DNA of 64,000 nucleotides, taken from contig NZ_CP121668.1 in NCBI RefSeq assembly GCF_029714425.1, positions 3,617,501 to 3,681,500 of the forward strand, written 5' to 3'. Of this stretch, positions 23,743 to 42,310 are shown piece after piece. Every line of letters starts with the position of its first letter. Positions within the stretch are counted from its first letter, which is position 1. The notes below the pieces were generated by a model that saw nothing but the letters and a program-made list of their open reading frames with translations, was not told the origin of the DNA and did no database searches. This DNA is from Bradyrhizobium sp. CB2312. GTDB taxonomy: Bacteria; Pseudomonadota; Alphaproteobacteria; Rhizobiales; Xanthobacteraceae. The translations under genes were made by a program, and so were the position numbers.

Positions 23743-24669
23743 GGTCTGTTGATTTTTCCCTTGGAGAGGGACCGGTACCATCAACACAAGCGGGTAGACC
23801 TCGTCCAATCGATCGGGATCGACAGGTTCCAACGTATTCTTTCTGCCCTTCAAGAGTAGCTTCAGAGATCGCCAGATCTTGGAGCGCCCGGTGTCATGCA
23901 TTCGAATGGCATGTAGCTCGTAGCCTGGTATCGAGCGCGCAATATTGACTAGGTTGGGCTGCGCCTTTGTGAAGAGCTCGAAACCCACGAGTGGCCTGTA
24001 TTGCCGCAGAAGTGGCTCAAGCGACTCGATGATCTCCTGCTCCATCCCCTCGACGTCTATCTTGATGAACGCGCGCGATAGTTGGTCCCCGTATTGCGCC
24101 ACGAAATCATGTGCTGATTTGAGTTGGATAGAATATCGATTTCCGAATTTCTCTTCGGAAAGGCCGAATGTCTCCGGCGGCAGCACAGACCTCTCTGCTA
24201 CGCGGCTGATGGAATGCTCGTCCGGAGACTCCTCGAGGGTCACGATTCCCTCGGTCTTGCCCAAACCGAAGTTGTGGCAGGACAAATGCGATATTCGGTT
24301 GCGCAATACATTGGCCTCCAGCACCCGATAGAGGATCGGATGAGGCTCGACCGCTTCCACCCGGCGGAACAGCGGCGCCAGCGCGATGCTGTGGTTACCG
24401 ATGTTCGCGCCGATATCGATCATCAACTCCGTGGTGCCGGAGCGGGAAAGGACGTAGCGTAACGTCTCTATCACGCCCTTTTCGAACAGGCCTTCCGACA
24501 GGATGTGCCGATCGACGGTGCTCGATACTTCGACAAACATCGTTGCGGGCCGCTTGCGGGCATGGCGCGCCAGGAGCGTGAGCAGTCCGAAGCTCGTAAG
24601 ATAGCGGATCGCATCGAAGCCGGGCTTCACCTCGAAGAAGGCGGTACGTTCTATCCTGTTTGACTGCAC
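23740..24669 (-). CDS. FkbM-family methyltransferase
   Basis: A 309-residue SAM methyltransferase. Motif I is ELMIDIGANIGNHSIALAPLF, followed by VEAVEPHPILYRVLEANV and the FkbM signature AFIKIDVEGMEQEIIESLEPLL. The start was set at GTG 24669 because GGGGAGG lies just upstream; an ATG at 24759 would overlap the upstream gene by 109 bases. FkbM proteins O-methylate sugars or polyketides. Here it overlaps the upstream unknown polysaccharide gene by 19 bases, so the two form an operon, and the likely target is a hydroxyl of the glycan. Confidence 0.85.
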   Translation of the reverse strand: MQSNRIERTAFFEVKPGFDAIRYLTSFGLLTLLARHARKRPATMFVEVSSTVDRHILSEGLFEKGVIETLRYVLSRSGTTELMIDIGANIGNHSIALAPLFRRVEAVEPHPILYRVLEANVLRNRISHLSCHNFGLGKTEGIVTLEESPDEHSISRVAERSVLPPETFGLSEEKFGNRYSIQLKSAHDFVAQYGDQLSRAFIKIDVEGMEQEIIESLEPLLRQYRPLVGFELFTKAQPNLVNIARSIPGYELHAIRMHDTGRSKIWRSLKLLLKGRKNTLEPVDPDRLDEVYPLVLMVPVPLQGKNQQT

Positions 24670-27801: not shown

Positions 27802-29061
27802 TCAATCAGCAGGGCGGGTCGTCATCGCTGCTCGATCCCTTCGCGCGACCATGGTAATTGCGACGGTCATCTGGGCCGCTCGCGCGCAACCCATCGACAG
27901 CATGTAGGCCTCGAATCCCAACTGGAAGAACGAGACAACGAGAAAGAGTGCTGTCCAGACAAGTACAAAGACCACCGCTCCGGCGAAGACTGCTCGCTCG
28001 CTGTCGAGCGCGATGAGGGCCCAATCGAAGACGGGGCTGATCTGAAGCGTCAGAGCCATAACGGTCAGGACTGCGTCGGACCAGGAGAGCCGGTATTTTG
28101 CCCAATATATGTCGGGATAGACCTGGTTCAGCAGTAGGAAGGAAGCCGCTGCTCCGACCGCCATGAAGACTGCCACTTCGGCCGAGCGCGCCATCGCGGC
28201 TTTGAGGATGCCGCCACGCTGGGCAAGTCTCGTACGAATAAAGTCCGGCCCCCATTTCTGAACAAATATGCTAGTCACAGTGTAGGCCGCGCTTAACCAG
28301 ATGCTAAGAAACGCATATTTCGCGCTATCAATTCCTGATGCGGAATGAAGTACCCAGCTTCGGTCGAAGCTGATCGGGATAAGCGCGGTACTCATCGCTG
28401 CAAAGAGCCAGACGCCATCTGCCTCCCGGCTGACGAAGGAATCCTTGTCGCTTACAACGAGATTCGGAACTTTGGCCCGCGAACGAATGATTGCCCGAAA
28501 ATAGAGGAGTACGGCAACGCCGATCAGTGCAGAAGACGCGGCTTCCGCCCACAGGCCCGCCTCCCAGTTGAACAGCGATGCAAACGTCGCGCAGAACACC
28601 AAGGCGCAAACCGCGCGCAACATCGTCGCAGCGCTCATTGCGAACAGTTTATCGTACGCCCTGAACAATGAAGCTGAAATCGCGAAGGCATTCGTGGCGA
28701 ACGCGAGCACGGCAACGGCGGAAGCCACGGTCGTCATTCGTGGTCCGTAGACGACGAGCGCGATCAGGGTAAGGATGCCCAACGCTGCCAGATGTCTCCA
28801 GGCGAGTTTTCGTACGTCCCATCCAAGTGTGCGGCGCAGTTCATCGGAGCGGCCGAACGCGACCAGGCGTGTGAATTTCTTGACCATGCCCTCGGCAAGG
28901 CCAAAGCTAATTGCGCTTGCTGCGAGACTCACGAAAGCAAACGCCGCTGAATATTGAGCAAAGTCCCCCGGTGATAGCATGCCTGCTAGAATCGCAGACT
29001 TGCCGAGGGTTACCACGCTCGCCAATGCCATGAGCGTGAAGAAGATGTAGTGGGACTTCAC
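27802..29061 (-). CDS. Wzx-like polysaccharide flippase
   Basis: A 419-residue membrane protein with about 12 hydrophobic segments. The N-terminal HYIFFTLMALASVVTLGKSAILAGMLSPGDFAQYSAAFAFVSLAASAISFGLAEGMVKKFTRL is typical of Wzx/MATE-like flippases. The start is GTG 29061, overlapping the stop of the upstream acetyltransferase gene as GTGA. It should flip the lipid-linked repeat unit of the island's polymer, working with the Wzy-like protein at 29621. A second flippase of the same class lies at 7831. Confidence 0.82.
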   Translation of the reverse strand: MKSHYIFFTLMALASVVTLGKSAILAGMLSPGDFAQYSAAFAFVSLAASAISFGLAEGMVKKFTRLVAFGRSDELRRTLGWDVRKLAWRHLAALGILTLIALVVYGPRMTTVASAVAVLAFATNAFAISASLFRAYDKLFAMSAATMLRAVCALVFCATFASLFNWEAGLWAEAASSALIGVAVLLYFRAIIRSRAKVPNLVVSDKDSFVSREADGVWLFAAMSTALIPISFDRSWVLHSASGIDSAKYAFLSIWLSAAYTVTSIFVQKWGPDFIRTRLAQRGGILKAAMARSAEVAVFMAVGAAASFLLLNQVYPDIYWAKYRLSWSDAVLTVMALTLQISPVFDWALIALDSERAVFAGAVVFVLVWTALFLVVSFFQLGFEAYMLSMGCARAAQMTVAITMVARRDRAAMTTRPAD

Positions 29062-29579
29062 CCTTTTGACTTCGGAAAGGTTTTCGCCGGACAACCGATT
29101 GCGATAGAATTCGGAGGAACATCTTTTGTGACGACCGCACCGGCGCCAACGACGGAGCCTTCACCAATAGTTACACCCGCAAGGACGGTTGACCGATATC
29201 CAAGCCAGACACCCTTTCCGAGAACAATCGGTTTGGACACATGCGAATAGGGTAACGGGCCGCCGATATCGAGACCGCCAGTCTCAACGCAGGCGCCCTC
29301 GGATAGCCTTACATAATCACCCATTGTGATGCCTCCCATCGCTCCCAGGACACAATTAGGGCCGATCCGAATACTGTGGCCTAGTACAATGCGGTCAGGA
29401 TACTTGACGCGGCAATTCCAGAATATATACGTATCCTTTCTCCATGAATCTGGCCATAAATAGCTGGAATAAGCTCGATTGGCTATTCCTTCGGCGGCCG
29501 AGTGCACTTTGGCAAGGGCGCGCATTAGGCCTCGTGAGCCGCTTGTCGCGAAGACGCGTGTGATCATTATTTTCGTCAT
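29058..29579 (-). CDS. Hexapeptide-repeat O-acetyltransferase (CatB/LacA-like)
   Basis: A 173-residue left-handed beta-helix enzyme: VLGHSIRIGPNCVLGAMGGITMGDYVRLSEGACVETGGLDIGG, then SKPIVLGKGVWLGYRSTVLAGVTIGEGSVVGAGAVVTKDVPPNSIAIGCPAK. The histidine in PYSHVSKPIVLG fits the catalytic position of maltose/xenobiotic acetyltransferases. It is the first gene of an operon with the flippase and the dioxygenase and would O-acetylate a sugar of the repeat unit. Only about 41 bases separate its start from the divergent Wzy gene. Confidence 0.85.
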   Translation of the reverse strand: MTKIMITRVFATSGSRGLMRALAKVHSAAEGIANRAYSSYLWPDSWRKDTYIFWNCRVKYPDRIVLGHSIRIGPNCVLGAMGGITMGDYVRLSEGACVETGGLDIGGPLPYSHVSKPIVLGKGVWLGYRSTVLAGVTIGEGSVVGAGAVVTKDVPPNSIAIGCPAKTFPKSKG

Positions 29580-29620: not shown

Positions 29621-31021
29621 ATGGACAATATGCCGGCTTTTTACATCAGCTGTCGCCTGTTGATTACTCTTGTCGCTGGAACTCTGCTTGTTCCGTTGGC
29701 CTTAGTCCTAAGCCTCCGATACATGACTGCATATGGCACGTGGCCATCCATTAGCGTCGGTTCTTGCGCTTTCTTTCTCGGATGGTATCTCGCGTTCTTT
29801 CTGGGGTTTTTCCTTCCGGTCCGATGGAAATCTACGATCGGCTGGAACGCGGCCGACCAGAAAATCTGGGATACAAACTTTTGGGTAATCAGTCTCTCAT
29901 GTGCCGCAGCCGTCGGTGCGGGACTCATGACCTATAATTTCGCGATTGTTCGCGGCTTTGGATTTGATGTCCAGGTAACAGAATTGCGTTCGATGGTGAT
30001 CGACGCTGCGTCTGCAGGCTATGTCGGTTCATGGTTGGGAGGGGTGGGCCGGCTTCTCATCTCTGCAATTGCGGTCGCGTGGATTGTCGCTTGTTTGAAA
30101 TGGAGAGATCTTTCGGCGCAGGCTCTGACATTGCTGCTAATCTCAACGACAGTCGTCTTTGCTTACCAAGCGAAATTTGAGGGAGGACGATTCTTTTCTT
30201 CAGCCATTCTGCTGGCGGCTTTTTTTGCAACGATCGGTTTCTTTGTTTCGGACGTCACGCGAGAGCGCCGCGTCAACATTCTCGCCGTCCGACCAACGCA
30301 CGTCGCGCCCGTCGCGATCTTGTTGCTGATGTTGGTCGGAGTAACTTCCTATAGTGAGCTGGTTTTCGTTTCTCGTGGCGCCCGATCCGCGCAAAGCTTC
30401 GCTCAGCTGAAGGCAGCCGACGCTCCGGCTGCAAAAAAGGTCGAGCAAATAGTCGGGGTGGAGAGACTTGCAGATGATCAACATCCCCTTGCCATTGCCT
30501 ATCTGCAGTATGCTGCCAACTTCGCTATCGATCTCTCATCTGCTCGCGATTCTCAAAGAATCGCAACGAGCTATGGCCAAGCGATGGCCTGGATCTACCT
30601 TACGCAAGGAATTGGCGAATTCGACAGAATTTTCCGCATCGAAAACCTACGCCACTCCTCGGGTTTCTACCAGTTTTCGCAAATCGCACAGGTGCTGAGC
30701 AAGCTGACTGGTGCCGACATGCGCTACGCAAACAATCTATCGAACTACGGCACGTACATCACACTGCCGGGTGCGCTCTATGTCGATTTCGGTACGGTCC
30801 TGGCGCTCGTTCTTGCAGCTCTCTCGGGGATCTGTTTGCGCGCCGGTGTTGAATCAATGTTCGCGGGCGCCGCGACCTTTTTGGCCATTCTGGCGCCGAT
30901 TCTCTTTGTGATCGTTGCTACGGGACCTGTCACCACATTGGTGACCAATCTCTGGCCGTGCGCTTTCTGGATAGCGCTCACGCAGATTCCGATCTCCACG
31001 AAATCCCTTGGATCGAGATGA
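29621..31021 (+). CDS. Wzy-like O-antigen/polysaccharide polymerase
   Basis: A 466-residue membrane protein with about 11 hydrophobic segments and one large periplasmic loop (residues about 245-360, SYSELVFVSRGARSAQSFAQLKAAD through GFYQFSQIAQVLSKLTG). This topology is the mark of Wzy polymerases, which link lipid-bound repeat units. Sequence conservation in Wzy is low, so the call rests on topology and context (Wzx divergent, glycosyltransferases nearby). AT content is visibly higher than in neighbouring housekeeping genes. Its TGA stop overlaps a small ORF start as ATGA. Confidence 0.7.
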   Translation: MDNMPAFYISCRLLITLVAGTLLVPLALVLSLRYMTAYGTWPSISVGSCAFFLGWYLAFFLGFFLPVRWKSTIGWNAADQKIWDTNFWVISLSCAAAVGAGLMTYNFAIVRGFGFDVQVTELRSMVIDAASAGYVGSWLGGVGRLLISAIAVAWIVACLKWRDLSAQALTLLLISTTVVFAYQAKFEGGRFFSSAILLAAFFATIGFFVSDVTRERRVNILAVRPTHVAPVAILLLMLVGVTSYSELVFVSRGARSAQSFAQLKAADAPAAKKVEQIVGVERLADDQHPLAIAYLQYAANFAIDLSSARDSQRIATSYGQAMAWIYLTQGIGEFDRIFRIENLRHSSGFYQFSQIAQVLSKLTGADMRYANNLSNYGTYITLPGALYVDFGTVLALVLAALSGICLRAGVESMFAGAATFLAILAPILFVIVATGPVTTLVTNLWPCAFWIALTQIPISTKSLGSR

Positions 31022-31200
31022 TTTGCCTCGTGATCGCCCTCTTCGAAGAGCCCCTTATTCTCGCGGAGTATGCTCTTAAGATCTTTGCAGCGCGTTCGTC
31101 TGATAATCGCAGTTGCGAAGAATTGGCCGGGAAAGCTACCCGGCATTCATTGCCTCGGACTGTGGAGGAGACACCGCAGGAACTCGCTACGGTAGGCTAG
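31018..31200 (+). CDS. Possible small membrane protein translationally coupled to the polymerase
   Basis: A 60-residue frame whose ATG overlaps the polymerase stop as ATGA, the arrangement used for coupled genes in this window. The first 22 residues (MICLVIALFEEPLILAEYALKIF) are hydrophobic, followed by a polar tail. Its end overlaps the 3' end of the convergent hisF-like gene by 14 bases. It has no recognised domain and could be chance. Confidence 0.3.
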   Translation: MICLVIALFEEPLILAEYALKIFAARSSDNRSCEELAGKATRHSLPRTVEETPQELATVG

Positions 31201-31969
31201 ACTTGGTCAGCCCTTTGCGAACCGGTATGCCTGCATCCGCCATAAATTTCTTCGCCTCAGCGGGCGTCTTGTCAGTGAAATGAAAAATGCTCGCTGCCGC
31301 CACAGCACTGGCCCCGCAGAGTTTAACGGCATCTACAAAGTGCTGATAGTTTCCTGCGCCGCCTGAAGCAATGACGGGAACGTTCACCGCGCTAACCACT
31401 GCTCCAATTAATTCAAGATCATATCCTTCCATCGTTCCGTCGCGCTCGACCGAAGTGAGCAAGATTTCTCCTGCTCCGAGATCGGCCACTTTTCGCGCAA
31501 AGGACACCGGATCCGTACTTTCTGATTTCGACCCGCATCGGCTCATACACACGTGCGTTCCGTCCTCATTCCGGACAACATCTATGCTGACCACAACACA
31601 CTGAGAACCGAAATAACGCGCGGCCTCCGAGACCAGCTTTGGGTTTTCATGAGCAGCGGTGTTGATGGAGACTTTATCGGCACCAGCTCCGAGTAAGCCG
31701 GCTATCTGGTGTATGTTGGTGATGCCGCCCCCGACCGTTAGGGGAACCGAAACACTCTTACCCAAGCTTCGTACAGTCGCCACATCTGGGTCTCTGCTTT
31801 CGGCAGTTGCAGCAATGTCCAAGAGCGCCAACTCATCGACATCCCTCTTGTCATATATCTTGATGGCCGGCAAAATCGAGCCAACGCGCCGCCAGCTATC
31901 AAAGCCAATGCCTTTGACCAGCCCATGTCCCTTCCACAGCAACGTTGGGATGATGCGGACCTTGAGCAC
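31187..31969 (-). CDS. HisF-like subunit of the sugar-amidation complex (HisF2/WbuZ type)
   Basis: A 260-residue TIM-barrel related to imidazole glycerol phosphate synthase subunit HisF. The second catalytic aspartate is kept (VVVSIDVVRNEDG), but the first, Asp11 in the standard CLDV motif, is replaced: the sequence is RIIPTLLWKGHGLVKG. The enzyme is therefore unlikely to make histidine. In Pseudomonas aeruginosa, HisF2 and HisH2 feed ammonia to WbpG for acetamidino-sugar formation. The GTG start lies two bases after the hisH stop, and wbpG and hisH precede it in the operon. Confidence 0.88.
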   Translation of the reverse strand: MLKVRIIPTLLWKGHGLVKGIGFDSWRRVGSILPAIKIYDKRDVDELALLDIAATAESRDPDVATVRSLGKSVSVPLTVGGGITNIHQIAGLLGAGADKVSINTAAHENPKLVSEAARYFGSQCVVVSIDVVRNEDGTHVCMSRCGSKSESTDPVSFARKVADLGAGEILLTSVERDGTMEGYDLELIGAVVSAVNVPVIASGGAGNYQHFVDAVKLCGASAVAAASIFHFTDKTPAEAKKFMADAGIPVRKGLTKSSLP

Positions 31970-31971
31970 GC

Positions 31972-32586
31972 CTAAACCTCTAAAAAGTTCTGTATTACGC
32001 GCGCGCCCGCCGTTGAACTCTTCTCGGGATGGAATTGAGCTCCAAAAATGTGCCCGCGCTCAATCGCAGAAGTAAACGGATGGCCATACTTGGTCGTGGC
32101 AGCGGTGCTGGAGGTATCCTTGGGCTCGAACGCAAAGCTGTGGACGAAATAGAAGTCGGTCCCGGACGCAATGCTCAGAAATAGGACGCTGTCGTTCATT
32201 GGATAGACGCTGTTCCACCCAACGTGAGGAATTCGAAGTGACGAATCCTTGGCCCTCAATGCGGTGACGCGACCCTTGATGAGGCCAAGACCGTTCGTGA
32301 TGCCGCCTTCCTCACTCTCGTCCGCAAGGAGCTGCATACCCAGGCAGATGCCCAAAAGCGGCATTTTACGATTCAGGACAGCATCACGTATCGGCCCCAC
32401 CCATCTGAATTCAGTCAAGTTGGCCATGGCCGCTGCGAAAGCTCCCACGCCGGGCAATATGAGCTTGTCTACCTGATTAATATCGCCTGGCTCGTCGAGG
32501 ACTACGGGAGTAGTACCCAGTCTCGCAAGCGAATTGCAGACCGAGGCGATATTGCCCATTCCATAGTTGATAATGCCAACGTTCAT
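31972..32586 (-). CDS. HisH-like glutamine amidotransferase for sugar amidation
   Basis: A 204-residue class I glutaminase. The catalytic cysteine is in LLGICLGMQLL, and the His-Glu pair in AQFHPEKSSTAGARVIQNFL. It releases ammonia from glutamine for its HisF-like partner. Its ATG overlaps the WbpG/PseA stop as ATGA and its stop lies two bases before hisF, so the three form one translational unit. A role in histidine synthesis is unlikely, given the partner's lost catalytic residue and the sugar context. Confidence 0.88.
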   Translation of the reverse strand: MNVGIINYGMGNIASVCNSLARLGTTPVVLDEPGDINQVDKLILPGVGAFAAAMANLTEFRWVGPIRDAVLNRKMPLLGICLGMQLLADESEEGGITNGLGLIKGRVTALRAKDSSLRIPHVGWNSVYPMNDSVLFLSIASGTDFYFVHSFAFEPKDTSSTAATTKYGHPFTSAIERGHIFGAQFHPEKSSTAGARVIQNFLEV

Positions 32587-33731
32587 CGGTTGTCGTAATT
32601 CTGCTTCTGAAGATTTCCGTGCTTATCCTTCTTGAGATTCCCCTTGCCATCACTTTGGAAGATGCGCCGGTTCGTGAACTGGTCGCAAATATCGATGAAC
32701 TCGTCCACTGTGAGGTCTAGCGGTTCAAGGATATCTTCCAGCGATTTGCCCAGGTAACTCCAGGGAAACTTGCCATCGTGACGGCGAACCATTTCGAGCC
32801 CGTCTTCCCGAGAGATCCGACCGCGGCGAATATGAAGACATGCTATGTCCGTAGCACGCCCGAAGCCAAACTTCAGAAACTTGAAGTAATCGTGGATGCC
32901 AGTTTGATAGTTGTCAAGATTCTCATAATCGACTACCGACCCTTCGATGGCCTTGCCGTAGGTTCTGAGCCCGTTTGCTTGCGCAATCAAGGCGTTCGCC
33001 AAGCCGTCCCACGGCATGTAGTGCCCGAGAAACAGGCCGGTGACGCCTACTCGCTGTAGATCGTCGTCGGATGGATATTGGTAGGGGATAATATCCCCGG
33101 GTGTAAAGCCATACACGTCGCAGAGGTCCGAAACACGCAGACCCAGAAGCCCGCCGAATTCCTCGAGCCAAGCTCGCGATAGAGTATTGTTCTCGGCTGC
33201 GGCTGCTGGTCCACCATATTCATTTTGCGAGTTCTCACCCCAAACTATGAGTGGAACGTCAAACTGGACGGCTGCCCGAACCGGAATAGTGAAAATTCCG
33301 ACGTGCTCGGGCCATGAGATGTCACCAACTTCGGTCAGTCCAATTCTGTTCAGCCTTGCGCGGACGAGAGGGTTCGGTGACATCTCGATGAGGTCGACAC
33401 CTAGCCGCTTAATATTATCGAGATTGTGCCGGCCGATATCCGACAAGTCGCACGTCGTTGACGTGACACAGAGAGGCCGCAGTCCGAGTTGCAGCATTCT
33501 GACGACTTGTGTGGTACTATCCTTACCGCCACTCACCGGGACGATGCAGTCCCAGTTCGTTCCACCGCGACGATATTTCTCCAGAATCCTCAGCAGCTCA
33601 TCTCGCCGCGCGTCGAAATCGATGACTTTCCTGTTCTCGTAAGAGCGGCAAGCGCTACAGACGCCATGATCGTCAAAGTGTAGGTCCGGCTTTGTGCTCG
33701 GCATCACGCATCGCTTGCAGTAGATCAGCAT
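32583..33731 (-). CDS. N-acetyl sugar amidotransferase (WbpG/PseA family)
   Basis: A 382-residue ATP-PPi type amidotransferase. The PP-loop SGGKDSTTQVVRMLQLG (about residues 68-84) is clear, and an N-terminal CxxC pair (YCKRCVMPS, GVCSACRSY) suggests a metal site. Family members convert an N-acetyl group into an acetamidino group using ammonia from HisH/HisF partners: WbpG for uronic-acid sugars, PseA for pseudaminic acid. The gene lies four bases after the methylase gene and overlaps hisH. With all Pse genes adjacent, a Pse5Am-type product is the leading prediction. Confidence 0.88.
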   Translation of the reverse strand: MLIYCKRCVMPSTKPDLHFDDHGVCSACRSYENRKVIDFDARRDELLRILEKYRRGGTNWDCIVPVSGGKDSTTQVVRMLQLGLRPLCVTSTTCDLSDIGRHNLDNIKRLGVDLIEMSPNPLVRARLNRIGLTEVGDISWPEHVGIFTIPVRAAVQFDVPLIVWGENSQNEYGGPAAAAENNTLSRAWLEEFGGLLGLRVSDLCDVYGFTPGDIIPYQYPSDDDLQRVGVTGLFLGHYMPWDGLANALIAQANGLRTYGKAIEGSVVDYENLDNYQTGIHDYFKFLKFGFGRATDIACLHIRRGRISREDGLEMVRRHDGKFPWSYLGKSLEDILEPLDLTVDEFIDICDQFTNRRIFQSDGKGNLKKDKHGNLQKQNYDNR

Positions 33732-33735
33732 CGGT

Positions 33736-34368
33736 TTACGCGCCTTTCTTCATCAGGAACCAACTGATATCGTCTTGGGGAAAAGCGGGGTCACGATGGT
33801 ACGCGAAACCGTAGTCGACCAGACGCAGATCAGAAAACCTATCCATGATCTCCCCGGCGAAGTCGCGCTTGAAAAGTCGATCATGGTGGCCGCGGTAAGG
33901 TATCGAAACCGGGCTCGGATTGTAATACTCGCAGACCAGGAGATAGCGAGACGTCGCGCCGTACAGTTTGTCGTACACCAAGGGAAGCTGTTCTGGATTG
34001 ATGTGAATAAGTACGCCCTTGATCAGCGCCAACTCGGAAGCTTCGGCACAAGCGTAATCCAGGATCGAACCGCAGAAGACGTTCGATACGCCGATTTCGT
34101 TGCCAAGCAGTGCAGCGGCCTTTTCGTTGATTTCCACACCCCTCAAGGTGCAGTCGGGATATAGGTGACGGATCGCCTTCAGGTTCATTCCTATGTTCGC
34201 GCCGAACTCAATGCAGCTCTTGGGAGGGAGGGCAGCATCGAGGCCTTTGCTGAAGAACTTGATGTTAGAAGCAAGAAGCGCGGGGCTCATGTTTCTCGCG
34301 ATATAATCATTCCCGAAATCGCCAGCCCAGAAGGCTTCCTGAGCACTGTGAGGATCAGATTTCGGCAT
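33736..34368 (-). CDS. Pseudaminic acid biosynthesis-associated methylase
   Basis: A 210-residue SAM methyltransferase: SCIEFGANIGMNLKAIRHLYPDCTLRGVEINEKAAALLG is motif I with its acidic partner, followed by GVLIHINPEQLPLVYDKLYGATSRYLLVCEYYNPSPVSIPYRGHHDRLFKRDFAGEIMDRF. This arrangement is that of the methylase family named for its association with Pse loci. It heads the four-gene unit with the amidotransferase set. It could N-methylate the acetamidino group, giving an N-methyl-acetimidoyl sugar, or methylate an oxygen; the sequence does not decide. Confidence 0.82.
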   Translation of the reverse strand: MPKSDPHSAQEAFWAGDFGNDYIARNMSPALLASNIKFFSKGLDAALPPKSCIEFGANIGMNLKAIRHLYPDCTLRGVEINEKAAALLGNEIGVSNVFCGSILDYACAEASELALIKGVLIHINPEQLPLVYDKLYGATSRYLLVCEYYNPSPVSIPYRGHHDRLFKRDFAGEIMDRFSDLRLVDYGFAYHRDPAFPQDDISWFLMKKGA

Positions 34369-34509
34369 GGTTTCATTCTCTTTCGGTTTTGATCAACGGC
34401 TCCGTCGAGGAATAGTCAACGGTAGACGTTGGTGGGGCGGCTTGTAGGCGCACAGGTCGGAGGCCAAGCGAGGGCGCTAGGTCCCGCGGGCACGTTGCTG
34501 CATCGTCGA

Positions 34510-35217
34510 CTATCGGGTTCCCCTCAGGCGATACTGAAAGATGCGTTCCGCGATTTCAAGGTCCTCGGGCGTATCAATGTCAACGGCCGTGTCGCGCGGG
34601 ACCGGAAGGATGGCTGATGAAACGACGTCGTACGAAGCGCCTGCAAGGGCGGTCTCGGTTTTGGACAGGTAGAATTGCCCGGCATCGTGATATGCGGTGG
34701 GCAGATCCTGCGACCGCGCAGAATAATATTCGGGATGCGCCATTCGCACGCGCCCGTCGTCGTTCATGAAGAGAGCGCGCTGGATTCGCGAGGGAAACTC
34801 AACGGCCGAGAAGACCATTTCGCAATTCAGTCTCTCGATCGCATCCACGGCGCTTTTGATGTCATCGGCGGAAACGAACACGGCGGTTGGATAGACGGTA
34901 AGGATCAGATCGGGCCGACAGCGGTTGCTGACGAACCAGTCGACCGCGTGCTTTGTCACGGCCGCAGTGCCCGTGTAGTCGTCTGACAGCGAGGCAGGAC
35001 GCATAAACGGCACCTCGGCGCCGATGTTCCGGGCCACCTCCGCGACCTCCTCATTGTCCGTCGAAACCAGAATAGTCGCGACGAGACCGGACGACTTCAG
35101 CATGCCTATGGGCCAAGCCATCATCGGCTTGCCATGAAAGAGGGTTATATTCTTGCGAGGAATTCGCTTGCTTCCGCCGCGTGCGGGGATGACCGCCAAT
35201 ATCGTTGGTAGCGTCAC
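34510..35217 (-). CDS. pseF: Pseudaminic acid cytidylyltransferase
   Basis: A 235-residue CMP-sugar transferase. The signature AVIPARGGSKRIPRKNITLFHGKPMMAWPIGML (CTP-binding) starts a few residues after GTG 35217, which was chosen for that reason. ILVSTDNEEVAEVARNIGAEVPFMRPASLSDDYTGT matches PseF/NeuA-type enzymes. It activates pseudaminic acid to the CMP-sugar, the last step of the pathway. It is separated from pseC by a 451-base gap and from the methylase by 141 bases. Confidence 0.87.
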   Translation of the reverse strand: MTLPTILAVIPARGGSKRIPRKNITLFHGKPMMAWPIGMLKSSGLVATILVSTDNEEVAEVARNIGAEVPFMRPASLSDDYTGTAAVTKHAVDWFVSNRCRPDLILTVYPTAVFVSADDIKSAVDAIERLNCEMVFSAVEFPSRIQRALFMNDDGRVRMAHPEYYSARSQDLPTAYHDAGQFYLSKTETALAGASYDVVSSAILPVPRDTAVDIDTPEDLEIAERIFQYRLRGTR

Positions 35218-35668
35218 GCCGAGTGCACCTTGGAAAATGATCTCATGGCTCGCTTCAGCGCCCCCATCGAAACGAAACGATCTCGAACACTCGCCTTCGC
35301 CGCAAGGGTCACTTCCAGGTTCGGCCAAAGTGCGGAGCCCGTCCTGTAGGGTGTTCTGATTCGGGAATACAGAACGAGCGAAGTTCGTTCTTAATCGTCG
35401 GACGTCTTGTGATCGGCCCGTTTGCTCTGCAATTCCGATTACACAGCGCAAGCATGAAGATCAACCCTGCCGGTAAGCACTAGTAAGGGGGAAATTGCCG
35501 ACTTGGCCGTCGATCGCTATGGATGTTGCACGGCCTTCCGACTCATGCGTTCTCTGAATGTTCCATTTGAGGCAAGGGCACACCAGGCTGCTTCCATCAG
35601 GCAGGTCCGAGGGGAGGGTGTTGGCCGTGGGGCGCTCCAGATCGTGCGCAACCCACGGGCACCTCTGC
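35218..35668. other. Gap between pseF and pseC
   Basis: About 450 bases on the leader side of pseF. Only short open frames without ribosome sites are present on either strand. A promoter for pseF and the downstream amidation genes may lie here. No repeat or RNA structure was recognised. Confidence 0.45.
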
Positions 35669-36820
35669 CTAGCGGAGGTGCTTAAGTTCGCCGACGGTCT
35701 TGACGACGTAGTGCTGCTCGGCGTCCGACAACGTCGGGAACATCGGTAGGGTCAGGATTTCTCTATAGGCAGCCTCGGCTTGGGGACACAACCCGGGCTG
35801 ATATCCGAAGCGTTCGCGGTAAAAACTGTGATGATAGACCGGGGCATAGTGGACGTTCGCGCCGATCCCGGCTGCCCTGAGATGATCGAACGCCCGACGC
35901 CGATCGATCTTGAGCTGAGCAAGGTCGAGGCGGATTACATACAGGTGGTAGGCATGAGATCGGCCTGGATGGTTCGCGAGTGGACGCACAAAGGGAATTT
36001 CCGCAAACATCTCGTCGTAGCGGGCGGCGATAGCGCGACGTCGATCCAGCCACACCGGCAAATGCTTCAGCTGCGCGATTCCAAGCGCGCATTGCACGTC
36101 CGGCAGTCGGTAATTGAAACCGAGTTCGACCATATCGTAGGAAAATATGCCGCTCTTTTCCCTCGACCTATGATCAGAATCGATCCCGTGGTTGCGGAAG
36201 CGGCGCATGTGCGCAGCCATCTCGGGGTCGTCTGTCAACACCATCCCCCCTTCGCAGGTCGTGAGGTGCTTCACAGGATGGAATGAGAAGGCCGAGAGGT
36301 CGGCTAGCGTCCCCACCTTGCCGCCCTTGTAGGTTGCTCCCGGAGCATGGCAGGCGTCGGCGATCAGCCTGATGCCGCGGCCGGCGAGAAGTGCGCGCAG
36401 GGCGTCGTAGTCGGCCGGCTGTCCGCCGTAGTCGACGGCGATGATGGCGCGGGTGCGGGCAGTTATTTTCTGGTCGACGGATGTCGGGTCAATCAGTAGC
36501 GTTTCCGGTTCTACATCAGCGAAGACGGGAGTGCCTCCCTCATAGACCACCGCATTTGATGAAGCCGCAAACGTGATCGCCGGAACGATCACCTCGTCGC
36601 CGGAACTGATTTTCACGGCGCGCACGGCGGCATGAAGCGCAGCGGTTCCGCTGTTGACAGCAACACCTTCGCGCGCCCCGCAGAACTCCGCGAATGCACG
36701 CTCGAAATCGCCGACTTTTGGGCCGGTCGTGAGCCAGGCCGAGCGCAACGTCTCGGCTACCGACGCGATATCCTCATCGTCTATGATTTGTCGGCCGTAA
36801 GGAATTGAACTGCTAGCCAT
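35669..36820 (-). CDS. pseC: UDP-4-amino-4,6-dideoxy-N-acetyl-beta-L-altrosamine transaminase
   Basis: A 383-residue PLP aminotransferase. The lysine lies in FSFHPVKHLTTCEGGM, and the N-terminus IPYGRQIIDDEDIASVAETLRSAWLTTGPKVGDFERAFAEFCGA is typical of PseC. It aminates C4 of the keto-sugar made by PseB. It overlaps the end of pseB by eight bases (36813-36820), so the two are coupled. The second DegT-type enzyme in this window (11486) is only moderately similar and belongs to another sugar. Confidence 0.92.
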   Translation of the reverse strand: MASSSIPYGRQIIDDEDIASVAETLRSAWLTTGPKVGDFERAFAEFCGAREGVAVNSGTAALHAAVRAVKISSGDEVIVPAITFAASSNAVVYEGGTPVFADVEPETLLIDPTSVDQKITARTRAIIAVDYGGQPADYDALRALLAGRGIRLIADACHAPGATYKGGKVGTLADLSAFSFHPVKHLTTCEGGMVLTDDPEMAAHMRRFRNHGIDSDHRSREKSGIFSYDMVELGFNYRLPDVQCALGIAQLKHLPVWLDRRRAIAARYDEMFAEIPFVRPLANHPGRSHAYHLYVIRLDLAQLKIDRRRAFDHLRAAGIGANVHYAPVYHHSFYRERFGYQPGLCPQAEAAYREILTLPMFPTLSDAEQHYVVKTVGELKHLR

Positions 36821-37805
36821 GCAGGCTCGCGGGATTTTCGAGCATGGCCTTCAGCGCCGCGGCGTTGAGCCATTCCGGATTGTTGTCGCTGGCGTAACGG
36901 AAGCCTTCGGGGACTAGCCGGCCAATATCGCCGTACCCCTTGTAGCTCCACCAGGCGAGCGCCGGCTGCACGACGTAGCGGTCCTCCAATTCAATCGTGA
37001 AGCGCGCATCGTCTTCGGTGATCATCACCTCGTGAAGCTTTTCGCCCGGCCGAATACCCACGATCTTGTGCGGACAGTCCGGCGCCATTGCCTTGGCCAG
37101 ATCGACGATTGACATCGACTTGATCTTCGGAACGAACAATTCCCCGCCCTGCATCATCCTGGCGCTCGAGAGCACGAAGTCCACGCCTTGGTCGAGCGTG
37201 ATCCAGAAACGCGTCATGCGCGGATCGGTAATCGGCAGATGGTCACTTCCCTTGGCAATGAGATCTCGGAAATACGGAACGACCGAGCCACGGGATCCGA
37301 CCACATTTCCGTAGCGAACGACGGCAAATTTGGTCCCAGTGTTGCCGGACAAATTGTTGGAGGCGACGAATATCTTGTCCGAGGCGAGCTTGGTGGCGCC
37401 ATACAGATTGACCGGGTTGCAGGCCTTGTCCGTCGACAGCGCCACGACCTTGGGAACGCGGTTCGCGATTGCAGCCTGGACGACGTTTTCGGCGCCGACG
37501 ACGTTAGTCTTGACGCACTCCATGGGATTGTACTCCGCGATCGGAACGTGCTTCATGGCCGCCGCGTGGACCACGAGGTCAACTTCGCGCATGGCCATGT
37601 TCAAGCGGTTGAGATCGCGGACGTCGCCGATGAAGAAGCGCAGCCGGTCATCGGGCAACGCCTGCGCCATGATGGCCTGCTTGTACTCGTCGCGCGAGTA
37701 GACGATGATCTTGCCGAGGTTATGATCCCGCAATAGAGTCTTGACGAGCTCCGTGCCGAAGGAGCCGGTACCCCCGGTGATGAGAATGGCCTTGTTGTCG
37801 AGCAT
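36813..37805 (-). CDS. pseB: UDP-N-acetylglucosamine 4,6-dehydratase (C5-inverting)
   Basis: A 330-residue SDR enzyme. The NADP-binding motif ILITGGTGSFGTELVKTLL is followed by IIVYSRDEYKQAIMAQ, a PseB/FlaA1 feature. DLVVHAAAMKHVPIAEYNPMECVKTNVVGAENVV and STDKACNPVNLYGATKLASDKIF carry the modified catalytic set (Lys in ALSTDKA, YGATK). It makes UDP-2-acetamido-2,6-dideoxy-beta-L-arabino-hexos-4-ulose. It is about 166 bases downstream of pseI in the same direction and overlaps pseC. Confidence 0.92.
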   Translation of the reverse strand: MLDNKAILITGGTGSFGTELVKTLLRDHNLGKIIVYSRDEYKQAIMAQALPDDRLRFFIGDVRDLNRLNMAMREVDLVVHAAAMKHVPIAEYNPMECVKTNVVGAENVVQAAIANRVPKVVALSTDKACNPVNLYGATKLASDKIFVASNNLSGNTGTKFAVVRYGNVVGSRGSVVPYFRDLIAKGSDHLPITDPRMTRFWITLDQGVDFVLSSARMMQGGELFVPKIKSMSIVDLAKAMAPDCPHKIVGIRPGEKLHEVMITEDDARFTIELEDRYVVQPALAWWSYKGYGDIGRLVPEGFRYASDNNPEWLNAAALKAMLENPASLHG

Positions 37806-37971
37806 GGTTCCGATCGTGGATCGTTGAAAAATCGATCGGTAGTAGTCAGTTCAGGCCAATATTGCAAGGGAGAGTGGTTGAAGAGAGTTGCTGGCCGCCT
37901 CTGGACGTTCCAGCTTGCGAGGGCTCAGGGCGATCGATGGCCTCGAGTGCCAAGGCGGTTCAGGTCGTTGA

Positions 37972-39027
37972 TCAGGTGATCGCTGACCACGTCAACGCCT
38001 CACCATAGGCGATGTCGCGCGCGGCCGTACGTCCAATGATGTCGGGCAGGTGCTTCGGTGGCAGACCAAAACCGGGTCTGATCACGCGCACATTCTCCGG
38101 CGTGAACGGTTGGCCCGCCTTGATCGACTTGACCGCGTAAATCGAGCGCCGGAAGCGAGTATTGGCGGCTTCGCTCGGGGCCAAGCTGTAGTCGACCCTG
38201 CCAAGAGCGGACCATGCCGACTTGCAGTCAGAGACCAACTTCCTGAATTCATTCGGTTCCAGCGAAAAAGCTGCGTCGGGCCCTCCCTCGGCACGAGAGA
38301 TCGTGAAGTGCTTTTCTATGATGGCGCCCCCCAGCACAGTGGCGGCGACACACGCGGCGGAGCCAGGCGCATGATCCGAAAGGCCTGATACCACGCCGAA
38401 CGCATCTCCAAGGTGCCCCACCGTGCGAACGTTGGCTTCCTCGATTGGCGCAGGATAGGCGCTGGTACAGTGCAGCAGGGCGATGCCGCCAGCGCCATGG
38501 CTGCGCGCTGTTTCGAGCGCTTCCTGGATCTCGCCCAGATTCGCCATGCCAGTCGAGATGATCATGGGCTTGCCGCGCTTAGCGACATATTTGATCAGCG
38601 GCAGATCAGTCACCTCGAAAGAGGCTATTTTATAGGCCGGGGTCTCGAGACCGGCGAGCAGGTCGACTGCGGTTTCGTCGAAGGGCGTCGAAAAGATCGT
38701 GATGCCGACCTCGCGCGCCTTCGCGAACATCTCTGCATGCCATTCGAACGGCGTGTAGGCTTCCTTGTAGAGCTGATGCAGTTGATAGCCGTCCCACAGT
38801 CCACCTTTGATTTGGAAGTCCGGACCGTCGTGCGGAATCGTCATAGTGTCCGGCGTGTAGGTCTGAATCTTGATGGCATCGGCTCCGGTCGCCGCTGCCG
38901 CCTCGATCAACTCCAAGGCTTTCGCAAGGCGTCCGCCATGATTGGCCGACAATTCAGCGATGATATAAGGGGGGTGATTGCGACCGATCTTGCGGCCGGC
39001 GATTTCGAGTTCCGCGTCCAGGCTCAT
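37972..39027 (-). CDS. pseI: Pseudaminic acid synthase
   Basis: A 351-residue NeuB-family enzyme. The N-terminus IGRNHPPYIIAELSANHGGRLAKALELIEAAAATGADAIKIQTYTPDTMTI is the TIM-barrel start of PseI/NeuB. The C-terminal SAF/antifreeze-like domain is clear (RSIYAVKSIKAGQPFTPENVRVIRPGFGLPPKHLPDIIGRTAARDIAYGEALTW). It condenses the 2,4-diacetamido-trideoxy-altropyranose with phosphoenolpyruvate. ATG 39027 was preferred to 39048 because the protein then begins like the family. Confidence 0.92.
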   Translation of the reverse strand: MSLDAELEIAGRKIGRNHPPYIIAELSANHGGRLAKALELIEAAAATGADAIKIQTYTPDTMTIPHDGPDFQIKGGLWDGYQLHQLYKEAYTPFEWHAEMFAKAREVGITIFSTPFDETAVDLLAGLETPAYKIASFEVTDLPLIKYVAKRGKPMIISTGMANLGEIQEALETARSHGAGGIALLHCTSAYPAPIEEANVRTVGHLGDAFGVVSGLSDHAPGSAACVAATVLGGAIIEKHFTISRAEGGPDAAFSLEPNEFRKLVSDCKSAWSALGRVDYSLAPSEAANTRFRRSIYAVKSIKAGQPFTPENVRVIRPGFGLPPKHLPDIIGRTAARDIAYGEALTWSAIT

Positions 39028-39114
39028 CGTTGGCCTCTCGCAACACATTGCAGCATCTGCGCCAGAGGCTGCCGGCCGAGCGAAATTTCGCGTGTCATCC
39101 GCTGTTCCCGTGCT

Positions 39115-40629
39115 TCAGTTATTTCCTTCGGCCGCGGCGTGCAAAGAAAGCCGATAAACCAGGAACTCAGCCTCTTGGCCGGTAAGCATGAAGCCGGCCT
39201 TCAGGAAGATTCTCTGAGAGGCTAGATTTTCCCGCTTCACTCGTGCCTCGACGCGCTCGCAGAACCCCTGGCCAAATGCCTCCTGGCAGGCCAAGGCGAG
39301 GGCAGTGCCACCGTAACCCCGTCCGCGGACGTTACGAGCCATTGCAATACTGACCACGGCCGTCCCCGTCAATTCGATGTGAAATCGCACGTTGCCGCAA
39401 GGTCTTCCATCGACCTGGAGGATGAAAATCAGGGTGTTTGCATCCACGATGCGGTTGTTGAACCATTTCGTGTGGGTATCCCAAGGCAGGGGCCGGCTAT
39501 CGCCGGACATTGTGCGGGCGTCGGGATCGTTGCGCCAGAGCCAGAGCCGCCGTGCGTCATCGGCAGTAGCACGGCGCAGCGTTAGCTGGCCGGTTCGTTC
39601 CTGCTGCACGAGCGCATCGATGGCCTCGCCGACGCGTTGCGCGCCAGCGCCGTCGCAAACTTTGGCCGCCCGCCGCGACATCCGGGCGAGTTCGTCGGGC
39701 TGTCGGGTGAGCTCAGCCAGGATGCGCGCAATCGCATCAGGGACGTCGCCAGCGAGTGGAACGATCCGGGCTGCACCCGTCTGCTCGAGCGCGCGAGCAT
39801 TCTCGCGCTGGTTCTCAGCTACAACGAGCTGGATCGACGGAAGACCGAGGCAGCACCGCTCCCAACTCGACGTGCCAGGCGTTCCGATCGCGATGTCGGC
39901 ATTTGCCATCAACGTGGCAATCTCGGGAGGATCGACATGGACTTGAATCCGCGTTGTTTCTTCCCGAAGGGCGACGATCTCATCGAAAGATGATGCGGTC
40001 GGGCCGATCACCACGATGATGCGCGAAAACGTCCCCGCGGTTACCAGAGACCGGGCGATGGCCGCCGTCTGGCCTCCGACATCGGTGAGCCCAAGCGAGA
40101 CGAATATCGATCTCGGCTCAAATGCCGTACATCGTCGCGCAAGCGAAACGGCGCGCAGCTCACCGAACGCACTGCGCAGCAGCGCATAGGACGAGCCGGC
40201 GAGCACGCGGCAGTGCTGCGGGATCAATCCGGCGTAGTCGTCGGCGCTCCGGCCCAGCGTCGTGTCTACGAGAAGGTCGCAATCATGTGGGCGCACGGGC
40301 GCATCGTCGATCACGAGGATCGGAGATCCATGTCGGCGTAGCGAGCGCTCGAACGCTTCGCCGAGCCGATAGGAGTCGATGACGATTAGGTCGATCCGCG
40401 TCCGCGCAAGCTCGCCGTCCACGAGCTCCATATTCCAGCCGTACTGATCAGCCTCGAGGCAGCGGATGCCGCTGTGAGCGAGGGCGGGCACGGTATCGCA
40501 GGTTCCCGAACAACACACGAAGAGAACATCCGCGCCACGCTGTTGCATTTCGGTTGCCAGCGTCAGGCATCGCATGACGTGGCCGCCGCCAGTGGCCGGA
40601 TCGGCATCGGCTCGGAAAACGATCAGCAT
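39115..40629 (-). CDS. Fused PseG UDP-sugar hydrolase and PseH-type N-acetyltransferase
   Basis: A 504-residue two-domain protein. Residues 1 to about 325 form a PseG-like GT-B hydrolase: MLIVFRADADPATGGGHVMRCLTLATEMQQRGADVLFV at the start and ADIAIGTPGTSSWERCCLGLPSIQLVVAENQRENARALEQTGAA in the donor half. Residues from about 340 form a GNAT domain: LRRATADDARRLWLWRNDPDARTMSGDSRPLPWDTHTKWF, then IAMARNVRGRGYGGTALALACQEAF and RVKRENLASQRIFLKAGF. Together they supply two consecutive-type steps of the Pse pathway: PseH (N-acetylation of the 4-amino group) and PseG (UDP removal). No separate pseH is seen nearby. Confidence 0.88.
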   Translation of the reverse strand: MLIVFRADADPATGGGHVMRCLTLATEMQQRGADVLFVCCSGTCDTVPALAHSGIRCLEADQYGWNMELVDGELARTRIDLIVIDSYRLGEAFERSLRRHGSPILVIDDAPVRPHDCDLLVDTTLGRSADDYAGLIPQHCRVLAGSSYALLRSAFGELRAVSLARRCTAFEPRSIFVSLGLTDVGGQTAAIARSLVTAGTFSRIIVVIGPTASSFDEIVALREETTRIQVHVDPPEIATLMANADIAIGTPGTSSWERCCLGLPSIQLVVAENQRENARALEQTGAARIVPLAGDVPDAIARILAELTRQPDELARMSRRAAKVCDGAGAQRVGEAIDALVQQERTGQLTLRRATADDARRLWLWRNDPDARTMSGDSRPLPWDTHTKWFNNRIVDANTLIFILQVDGRPCGNVRFHIELTGTAVVSIAMARNVRGRGYGGTALALACQEAFGQGFCERVEARVKRENLASQRIFLKAGFMLTGQEAEFLVYRLSLHAAAEGNN

Positions 40630-40666: not shown

Positions 40667-41959
40667 TCAGTCCCGCTTCAGTGCTACGCGGGGGGTAATA
40701 TACCAAAGCACGAGCAAAACGAGAAATCCATGGGTCAACAGGATCACCGTGAGGGGTACATTGAGAAAAATCTGCGGTAACAAAGCTGCGGACATCAGGA
40801 CAAAGCGCGGCGGCAGTCCCGCGGACACGCGGTTTCCAAGCGCGACCACAAGTCCGCCAGCGAAGGCCGTCGTCGGCGCCCACCAATTACCCACTGACGC
40901 AATTCCCTCGGTAGCGAATAGTGAGGCATTGAAATACCCGCCAATTCCGAACGCCTTGTAGATGACAATGCCCAGCGGCTCGCGATATGGGCAGGTGGCA
41001 AGGGCTTTCAGAACGCTTATTTGGCAGAACAGTGTGAGGTCATTCTTAGAGAAGAATTCATTATAGTAGTCCATGGCCAGCGAGGGAAATGTCATCGTGC
41101 GGAGATTGATCAACGCGAAATAAGGGTGCGCCTCTGAAGTCTGCAATATCCCGAATTTCCACAGGATAATCATCAATATGCCAATCACTGTGGGAGCCAG
41201 GAGAGAAACGACTACGAGCAATCGTGCTTCTATGAGCCGGGCCGCCAACGCGATCAGGCTGATCCAGGCGGCACTGAACAGGGCGAACTTGCTAAGGGTA
41301 ACCGGATAAATGAGAAGCAGAAGTCCCAATGTCGTTGCAGCCCGCTTGATCATGCGGCGTTCCACAAAACAGGCGAATGCGAAAGGCAGCAGTGCGCTCG
41401 CGGTAATTGCAAGAAGATAGTCGAGGAGCTTCGGGAACTTGAGCGTGTCGCGCGAGATGTAGATGTCGCCGTCAAGCCTGATCAGCTTGAGCAATTGGCC
41501 AACATCAAAATGGTACGCTGCGCCGGCGAGTAGCGTCGCTCCAGCGCCTAACAGGACCGCATCGAGAAGGCGGTCGAACCCAACCCGAGAGGGCGTCCAG
41601 AGCTGCCTGAGGGGAGCTTTCAGAAGTACCGCAGGCAAGATAAAGGCAACCGCAGAAGCGTACGCCGAGACGCCTGCCAGCCGATGGTCGTATTGGAATT
41701 CGGAAAAACAGTTCAACCAAAGATAGCCCGCTATCATCGAGTAGAAATAGAACCCGATGAGATAGCCGAAGCTGAATTCGGAAATCGCAAAGACAGCGGC
41801 GACCGGGAGGAATGCCGCCACGGCGGCCAGCGCGAAAGGCAGGCCGTCCCTCCGAAAGGCCATGTGATACGCGGGGTAGAGCTGTGAGGCTATAAACAGC
41901 GTGAGGCAGAGTGCAGCCACATGGAGGTAAATCGGCGCAAGAAGTCGAATATGTCGCAT
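40667..41959 (-). CDS. Wzy-like polymerase or other polytopic polysaccharide membrane protein
   Basis: A 430-residue membrane protein with about 11 hydrophobic segments and a loop near residues 290-335 (ILQTSEAHPYFALINLRTMTFPSLAMDYYNEFFSKNDLTLFCQISVLKALATCPYREPLGI). ATG 41959 was chosen because the upstream extension is unlike a membrane protein N-terminus. It lies 37 bases upstream of the pseG/pseH gene on the same strand and is likely cotranscribed with it. Topology suggests a Wzy polymerase or a membrane glycosyltransferase-like protein for the Pse-containing polymer. A second Wzy-like gene exists at 29621. Confidence 0.6.
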   Translation of the reverse strand: MRHIRLLAPIYLHVAALCLTLFIASQLYPAYHMAFRRDGLPFALAAVAAFLPVAAVFAISEFSFGYLIGFYFYSMIAGYLWLNCFSEFQYDHRLAGVSAYASAVAFILPAVLLKAPLRQLWTPSRVGFDRLLDAVLLGAGATLLAGAAYHFDVGQLLKLIRLDGDIYISRDTLKFPKLLDYLLAITASALLPFAFACFVERRMIKRAATTLGLLLLIYPVTLSKFALFSAAWISLIALAARLIEARLLVVVSLLAPTVIGILMIILWKFGILQTSEAHPYFALINLRTMTFPSLAMDYYNEFFSKNDLTLFCQISVLKALATCPYREPLGIVIYKAFGIGGYFNASLFATEGIASVGNWWAPTTAFAGGLVVALGNRVSAGLPPRFVLMSAALLPQIFLNVPLTVILLTHGFLVLLVLWYITPRVALKRD

Positions 41960-42310
41960 GGTTGCTGCCTGATGTCGTTTTCCTCGTCTGCCTAGCGTAA
42001 AGCTCAACCTCGTATCCGAATCAGGACACGTGAACAAGTCGGAAAGATCGGACCTGCGTCGTGCCCCGAACGATCAAGACAAGCCGACGCCGCCCGCACG
42101 ATCGCCGTTGGTGAGACACGCGATAAGCTGTGGAGGGGCGCACATGGCTTACATCATGGCATTCGTCGAGGACGCATTGCAATTAGGAGACGGCGGCCGC
42201 ATCCAGCTTCAATTCGACGTCACGAGACTGTGCCAAGCCCGGCGCATCACGCTGCGCTCTTGATTGCATTAATCTTAGTTTCTATAGAGGCCCTCCAAGG
42301 GATAGCATAG
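41960..42310. other. Divergent gap between polymerase and carbamoyltransferase
   Basis: About 350 bases. It holds a good promoter candidate for the carbamoyltransferase (see 42260-42288) and no supported gene. A 77-codon frame at 42030-42263 has no ribosome site and low-quality composition. Confidence 0.5.
42260..42288 (+). promoter_or_regulatory. Candidate sigma-70-type promoter of the carbamoyltransferase gene
   Basis: TTGATT (42260-42265), a spacer of exactly 17 bases, and TATAGA (42283-42288). The expected start point leaves a leader of about 16 bases with AAGGGA ahead of ATG 42311. Both hexamers match the consensus at four or five of six positions, and the geometry is right. Confidence 0.5.

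Follow-up and report, generated by a model that had tools for sequence, protein, structure and literature searches.

Which sugar is made by the pseudaminic acid (Pse) genes of Bradyrhizobium sp. CB2312, and to what is that sugar attached? The genome of this strain is one contig of 9.78 Mb (NZ_CP121668.1), of which a stretch of 64,000 nucleotides (positions 3,617,501 to 3,681,500 of the forward strand; hereafter the window) was analysed. Between positions 31187 and 40629 of the window, nine genes are aligned on the minus strand, encoding in this order a PseG-PseH fusion, PseI, PseB, PseC, PseF, a methylase, an amidotransferase, HisH and a HisF-like protein. The initial annotation of this DNA had named this gene set and predicted from it an acetamidino-modified Pse, possibly N-methylated by the methylase and placed in a surface polymer. 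The gene set is present as named, all in one direction, and an amidino Pse is well supported as the predicted product. N-methylation of the amidine is plausible and the best reading, yet unproven, and a protein of 472 residues without annotation (GT472) may transfer the sugar. Taken as a whole, the proposed route of amidination, N-methylation and transfer by GT472 into the polymer is in our judgement fairly probable.

Predicted synthesis of an amidinated pseudaminic acid

The families of the cassette exceed their NCBIfam cut-offs save for the PseH domain and the HisF-like protein, and on this ground an artefact of chance or annotation was rejected (scores are given below as bits/curated cut-off). 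The genes for synthesis of cytidine monophosphate (CMP)-Pse include PseB (inverting 4,6-dehydratase, 330 residues, 36813..37805; TIGR03589, 521/408), PseC (aminotransferase, 383 residues, 35669..36820; TIGR03588, 440/424), PseI (pseudaminic acid synthase, 358 residues, 37972..39048; TIGR03586, 485/340), which is the sole PseI-family match in the genome, and PseF (CMP-Pse synthetase; TIGR03584, 245/206). The open reading frame (ORF) listed for PseF (34510-35451) is too long: homology begins at its residue 85 and the GTG at 35217 is the likely start, giving 34510..35217. About 450 bp (35218-35668) without an assigned gene separate PseC from this start, and may hold an internal promoter or a decayed gene.

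The PseG-PseH fusion (UDP-sugar hydrolase and N-acyltransferase, 504 residues, 39115..40629) is uneven in its two halves. The PseG half is over the cut-off (TIGR03590, 246/154) and resembles the solved PseG 3hbm (E 5.5e-17), while the PseH half carries a Pfam Acetyltransf_3 domain and stays under its cut-off (TIGR03585, 40.8/93.1). This score speaks against an acetamidino product, since the acyl group added may be other than acetyl, and Pse with hydroxybutyryl groups occurs in rhizobia; the amidine, if formed, would then not be acetamidino or would lie on the other nitrogen. The PseH of related cassettes is, however, equally divergent (22-38% identity in the matches obtained), so that the low score says little, and we consider a non-acetyl group unlikely.

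The amidotransferase (382 residues, 32583..33731) belongs to the N-acetyl-sugar amidotransferases (TIGR03573, WbuX; 310.5/203.2). It carries SGGKDS at residue 67, in agreement with SGGxDS, the PP-loop motif of the WbuX/PseA family, and CxxC at residues 5-8 and 25-28. An amidotransferase from Bradyrhizobium sp. S3.9.2 is 97% identical; the PDB sequence search returned 8wex (E 1.1e-36) plus a chance-level match (E 0.33), and the 15 records from a search of plasmids (25.6-37.5% identity) include none near the Pse clade described below.

The position of this enzyme in its family was determined with two trees. In a tree of 116 sequences, limited to WbuX proteins above 80 bits with a Pse-clade profile, it falls in a clade of 85 rows (Shimodaira-Hasegawa-like approximate likelihood ratio test, SH-aLRT, 100), and 31 WbuX homologues from order and phylum samples fall outside. 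In a more careful tree, using 78 of 133 collected sequences (13 proteins were added beyond the 116-row set and L185 was skipped), it lies in a Pse-linked clade of 33 rows (support 100/99), separate from a presumed legionaminic acid (Leg)-type clade with 8wex and from a deep third group. The Pse clade includes P0185, which NCBI names PseA, 'putative Pse5Ac7Ac acetamidino synthase', and P0121 of Clostridium drakei, 68% identical, whose UniRef name begins 'Flagellin modification protein, Pse'. Pse5Ac7Am genes are predicted in C. drakei in the available part of one report (PMC13317340), and we take these to include the gene for P0121. The trees include neither PseA of Campylobacter jejuni nor WbpG of Pseudomonas aeruginosa, so that the phylogeny is anchored indirectly and connected to PseA by way of the C. 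drakei protein and of names in databases. With these anchors, a grouping of the enzyme with unrelated sugar amidotransferases was sought and did not appear, and the acetamidino-Pse prediction of the initial annotation gains from the Pse-linked clade.

The cassette is conserved far beyond the genus. When genome contigs were scanned with the amidotransferase as query, 215 relatives were confirmed, of which the best 80 (68-78% identity) were kept, their hosts, many of them metagenome-assembled genomes (MAGs), including Burkholderiales, Pseudomonas, Alphaproteobacteria, cyanobacteria, Bacteroidota, Verrucomicrobiota, Planctomycetota and Bacillota. A gene for HisH lies at most 2.5 kb downstream of the amidotransferase in 78 of the 80 loci and one for HisF in 77, and at least three of PseB, PseC, PseF, PseG and PseI are found in 65, including all 53 loci of at least 17 kb. 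A frequent order is PseB-PseC-PseF-methylase-amidotransferase-HisH-HisF-PseG-PseH-PseI, and these blocks recur in the window, where PseGH and PseI come at the start. HisH, HisF and an amidotransferase of the Pse clade, 71% identical to that of the window, are also encoded on a contig of a Lokiarchaeota MAG (L137), possibly by contamination.

This linkage bears on a different substrate for the amidotransferase set. WbuX enzymes with substrates of the L-FucNAm or ManNAc3NAmA type exist, a further sugar aminotransferase is encoded at 11486-12748 and the other sugars of the polymer are unassigned, so that another N-acetyl sugar could be the one amidinated. Pfam scans of 30 window proteins, however, revealed no additional pathway for FucNAc or Man(2,3)NAcA, and the linkage of the clade to Pse genes in 65 of 80 loci, and in every long one, makes this quite improbable.

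The two partner proteins were examined for a role in histidine synthesis. HisH2, the glutaminase partner (31972..32586), has the active-site motifs GICLG (Cys) and HPE (His-x-Glu). It is over the cut-off of the histidine enzyme (TIGR01855, 232/105), as would be expected of a spare histidine gene carried along by chance. The HisF-like protein (HisF2, 31187..31969) falls under every equivalog cut-off (WbuZ, 277.1/299.7; AglZ/HisF2, 255.8/310; HisF, 255.7/294.55). The position of D11, which we take from work on Thermotoga HisF to be the cyclase acid/base, is Leu in the window and in all 83 cassette HisF2 proteins (ORFs of the 80 loci scoring >300), while R5, E46, K99, D130 and E167 are retained, R5, E46, K99 and E167 presumably forming the ammonia gate. 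Of 32 other HisF-like ORFs in the fetched loci (score <300), 16 retain D11 and 16 do not. Canonical hisH and hisF lie separately at 196.7-198.9 kb of the same genome. The loss of D11, these separate genes and the cassette linkage led us to reject histidine duplicates, which we hold to be extremely improbable; HisF2 reads as an ammonia channel serving the amidotransferase and probably not as a cyclase. Together with the Pse-linked clade, the D11 loss and the separate canonical hisHF are the reasons why an amidino Pse is well supported as the predicted product.

The sequences show the identities of the genes, the clade of the amidotransferase, the loss of D11 from HisF2, the conservation of the cassette and the fold and motifs of the candidate transferase. 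From these we infer a route in which each chemical step, the position of the amidine (N5 or N7) and the site of the methyl group are predictions. CMP-pseudaminic acid would be made from UDP-N-acetylglucosamine by the standard route of PseB, PseC, PseH, PseG, PseI and PseF. HisH2 would free ammonia from glutamine and HisF2 would channel it without cyclase chemistry, and the PP-loop amidotransferase would use ATP to activate one N-acetyl carbonyl, nitrogen replacing oxygen to give acetamidino Pse. The methylase would then most likely N-methylate the amidine, as PtmH does on CMP-Leg5Am7Ac. GT472, as a KpsC/WbbB-like enzyme, would move the decorated Pse from CMP onto the repeat unit, and Wzx/Wzy-type proteins would export and polymerise it.

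The methylase and its possible tie to the amidine

The methylase (33736..34368; TIGR03587, Pse_Me-ase, 266.5/112) has a class I S-adenosylmethionine-dependent fold and is predicted to act on amidinated Pse; a PDB sequence search with it gave no match. Its gene lies directly upstream of the amidotransferase (<150 bp, same strand) in 62 of the 80 loci. The correlation of pairwise distances between methylase and amidotransferase (0.75) is the highest of 36 gene pairs, followed for the methylase by HisF2 (0.70) and HisH2 (0.57), with PseB, PseC, PseF, PseG and PseI at 0.21-0.41. When a single set of 35 loci was used, the methylase correlated at 0.68 with the amidotransferase and at 0.33 with its neighbour PseF (difference 0.35, 95% range 0.16-0.54), the top pair being amidotransferase and HisF2 (0.77). 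In two genome samples, TIGR03587 exceeded its cut-off in 19 genomes and WbuX was also present in 8 of them, which is more than expected when relatedness is ignored (Fisher p 2e-4 to 3e-5 depending on the genome total assumed).

Several observations weigh against an amidine as the methylated group. The methylase is missing from 12 of the 80 amidotransferase loci and distant or divergent in 6 more, and three sampled genomes with a Pse-clade amidotransferase have only divergent TIGR03587 proteins (37-40% identical), on other contigs. Conversely, the other 11 of the 19 sampled TIGR03587 genomes have no WbuX over cut-off, and 10 of these 11 have a match to the PseI/NeuB family, so that some TIGR03587 members act, it appears, on nonulosonates without a WbuX amidine. 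Seven of the sampled genomes encode a methylase that shares 46% or more identity with that of the window, and among these WbuX is present in the window's own genome only. Because the amidotransferase served to collect the 80 loci, these give no measure of the frequency of the methylase on its own; and class I methyltransferase folds do not tell N- from O-methylation. On the evidence of the WbuX-free genomes, a strict tie to the amidotransferase was rejected for TIGR03587 as a whole. The possible N-methylation proposed in the initial annotation has gained adjacency and co-inheritance in its favour, and the methylase-free loci and WbuX-free genomes speak against a strict tie.

The same observations favour a different role, in which Pse is amidinated and the methylase acts elsewhere on the sugar, independently of the amidine, for example as an O-methyltransferase at C4 or C8 or on an amide nitrogen. 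In one genome without WbuX over cut-off, a TIGR03587 ORF is directly followed by an ORF for an ATP-grasp ligase (L201:8482-10410), an arrangement that adds to this alternative and may point to an aminoacyl group, in place of an amidine, as the site of N-methylation. Against it stands the inheritance of the methylase with the amidotransferase and HisF2, and not with PseB, PseC, PseF, PseG and PseI. The six close methylases (at least 46% identical) from WbuX-free genomes also bear on the question. In the methylase tree (rows of <150 residues dropped), the window's group contains 53 rows (SH-aLRT 94), 52 of them in amidotransferase loci, largely as most rows were collected through the amidotransferase. 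Five of the six fall outside this group. The sixth (L197, genome G383) adjoins PseG with no room between for the usual amidotransferase set; since the contig ends within PseG and the genome yielded no PseI, L197 shows absence of the set at that place and not genome-wide. We regard methylation elsewhere on Pse as possible, at decidedly less than an even chance, and N-methylation of the amidine as the best reading, plausible and unproven.

Three loci encode fusions of about 800 residues with an oxidoreductase-like part and a NeuB-type synthase (L202:7333-9735, L208:3494-5899 and L200:1118-3682), of which those in L202 and L208 directly adjoin a methylase of the TIGR03587 family.

The polymer island and a candidate transferase

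The G+C content is 54-61% across 18-44 kb of the window and 62-67% on either side. In this region, GT472 (24651..26069, minus strand) is a GT-B-like protein without a Pfam match, having the fold of the retaining CMP-3-deoxy-D-manno-octulosonate (CMP-Kdo) transferases GT99, GT107 and GT140 at 8-15% identity over the aligned part. The QxxxD nucleophile motif of these enzymes is replaced by E277xxxD281, with E in 42 and D in 39 of 42 sequences. At the position of the CMP-binding motif (K/R)xHP the window has KEHP; K and H are present in 42 of 42 sequences and P in 16 of 42, and KrkA itself departs from the motif. Relatives of GT472, known from 24 other genomes (14 fetched, 10 not), tend to lie in Pse and Leg-type loci. 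The transferase of Bradyrhizobium sp. S3.9.2 is 94% identical to it. It is found in only 4 of the 80 cassette loci and could use CMP-Kdo, two points that count against a Pse transferase. GT472 may transfer CMP-Pse, an assignment that is new, and it is possibly the founder of an unnamed family of CMP-nonulosonate transferases.

Three membrane proteins nearby were assigned by our own reading: a Wzx-like flippase (27802..29094, minus strand) and a polymerase-like protein (29621..31021, plus strand), both without a Pfam match, and a second polymerase-like protein (40667..42037, minus strand) without a Pfam or NCBIfam match, adjoining the PseG-PseH gene. Their counterparts in the island of another genome of the genus (G755) are 55%, 49% and 69% identical, respectively, the last again beside PseG. 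This island shares PseG-PseH, PseI, PseB and PseC with the window at 65-90% and the polymer genes at 49-86%. The PseF-methylase-amidotransferase-HisH-HisF part is absent from it and replaced by other genes, which we read as a cytidylyltransferase unlike PseF, an aminomutase-like aminotransferase, a KidO-like oxidoreductase, a deacetylase-like protein and a GNAT protein. Its WbuX is a different one, 35% identical to that of the window (TIGR03573, 343/203), and is accompanied by a separate HisH and HisF. That the same island carries two non-orthologous sets for amidation suggests a need for an amidino sugar in the polymer. For the surface polymer first proposed there is thus a candidate transferase of CMP-Pse, and a second genome of the genus has a syntenic island.

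At the edge of the island, on the opposite strand, 42311-43948 encodes a NodU-like carbamoyltransferase, which may carbamoylate the polymer. The translated ORFs 4981-5829 and 15029-18007 contain metalloprotease-like motifs of the form HExxHxxGxx (HEMGHVIGIG and HELGHAFGLKHS), with internal repeats in the larger.

Relation to known systems and implications

Of the scheme proposed here, the chemistry is known in outline; the methyl step and the enzyme predicted to attach the sugar are newly assigned. The cassette resembles the PseA system of Campylobacter in joining a Pse pathway to an N-acetyl-sugar amidotransferase, with the same predicted class of product. It differs in combining HisH2, HisF2 and a methylase in one module and in its setting in a polymer island; the likeness is one of pathway and predicted product. 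The three-protein amidation machinery of P. aeruginosa, WbpG/HisH2/HisF2, which acts on a ManNAc3NAcA-type sugar, is alike in principle.

In the accessible parts of the literature, the acetamidino position itself differs, being Pse5Ac7Am in one report (PMC13317340) and Pse5Am7Ac in another (PMC3068675). Amidination followed by amidine methylation on a CMP-nonulosonate is described, in the portions available, for PtmG/PtmH of Campylobacter and ORF28/ORF8 of Legionella, giving N-methylacetimidoyl legionaminic acid (PMC3766260, PMC13306086). The same succession is predicted here, on Pse instead of Leg, and the Pse clade is separate from the presumed Leg-type clade; TIGR03587 is likened to PtmH by predicted role only. 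For Tannerella forsythia, an AnsB-like protein and not TIGR03587 is proposed for the acetamidino group in the text at hand, and the passages available on Tannerella and Shewanella did not settle the methyl site. Among partial texts on N-methylacetimidoyl groups and pseudaminic acid, N-methyl Leg was found, as was Pse5Am7Ac on a Thermus pilin, for which no methyl group is stated, and N-methylacetamidino-Pse was not seen. The titles and abstract openings of the matches listed for Bradyrhizobium with pseudaminic or nonulosonic acid contain no Bradyrhizobium Pse structure, and a query on the methylase gave only general methylase papers among the matches listed, which proves no absence. With regard to attachment, a Pse transferase of Acinetobacter baumannii is reported as a KpsC homologue in the available part of PMC12887879. 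GT472 is set apart from KpsC (GT107), WbbB (GT99) and KrkA (GT140) by its ExxxD in place of QxxxD, its low identity and its lack of a Pfam match.

Beyond this locus, a wider claim may be made jointly: that TIGR03587 is the N-methyltransferase of amidinated Pse, that methylase-amidotransferase-HisH-HisF is a mobile N-methylacetamidino-Pse module ranging from a Bradyrhizobium group to cyanobacteria, Bacteroidota, Planctomycetota and Bacillota, and that GT472 founds a family of retaining CMP-nonulosonate transferases. We put it forward as tentative, somewhat short of an even chance. A pair of Methylotenera loci, one with the methylase (L067) and one without (L076), turns its methyl prediction into a shift of 14 Da. 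For quinoxaline derivatives, PMC7371886 lists ions of m/z 451.182 (PseAc2) and 450.199 (LegAmAc, an amidino-acetyl nonulosonate), and the calculated value for an N-methyl form is 464.215.

An amidine adds a positive charge to an acidic surface sugar. In the parts of the reports available, acetamidino Pse is bound by a protein of a Campylobacter phage (PMC4690887), and the interaction of Legionella with macrophages changes when its amidino sugar loses the N-methyl group (PMC13306086). If the proposed route is true, TIGR03587, a methylase family known from its gene neighbourhood, would acquire a function, and a protein that Pfam leaves unannotated would become a candidate CMP-Pse transferase. 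The presence of the module across phyla suggests that more organisms bear this decoration than the few in which it has been measured.

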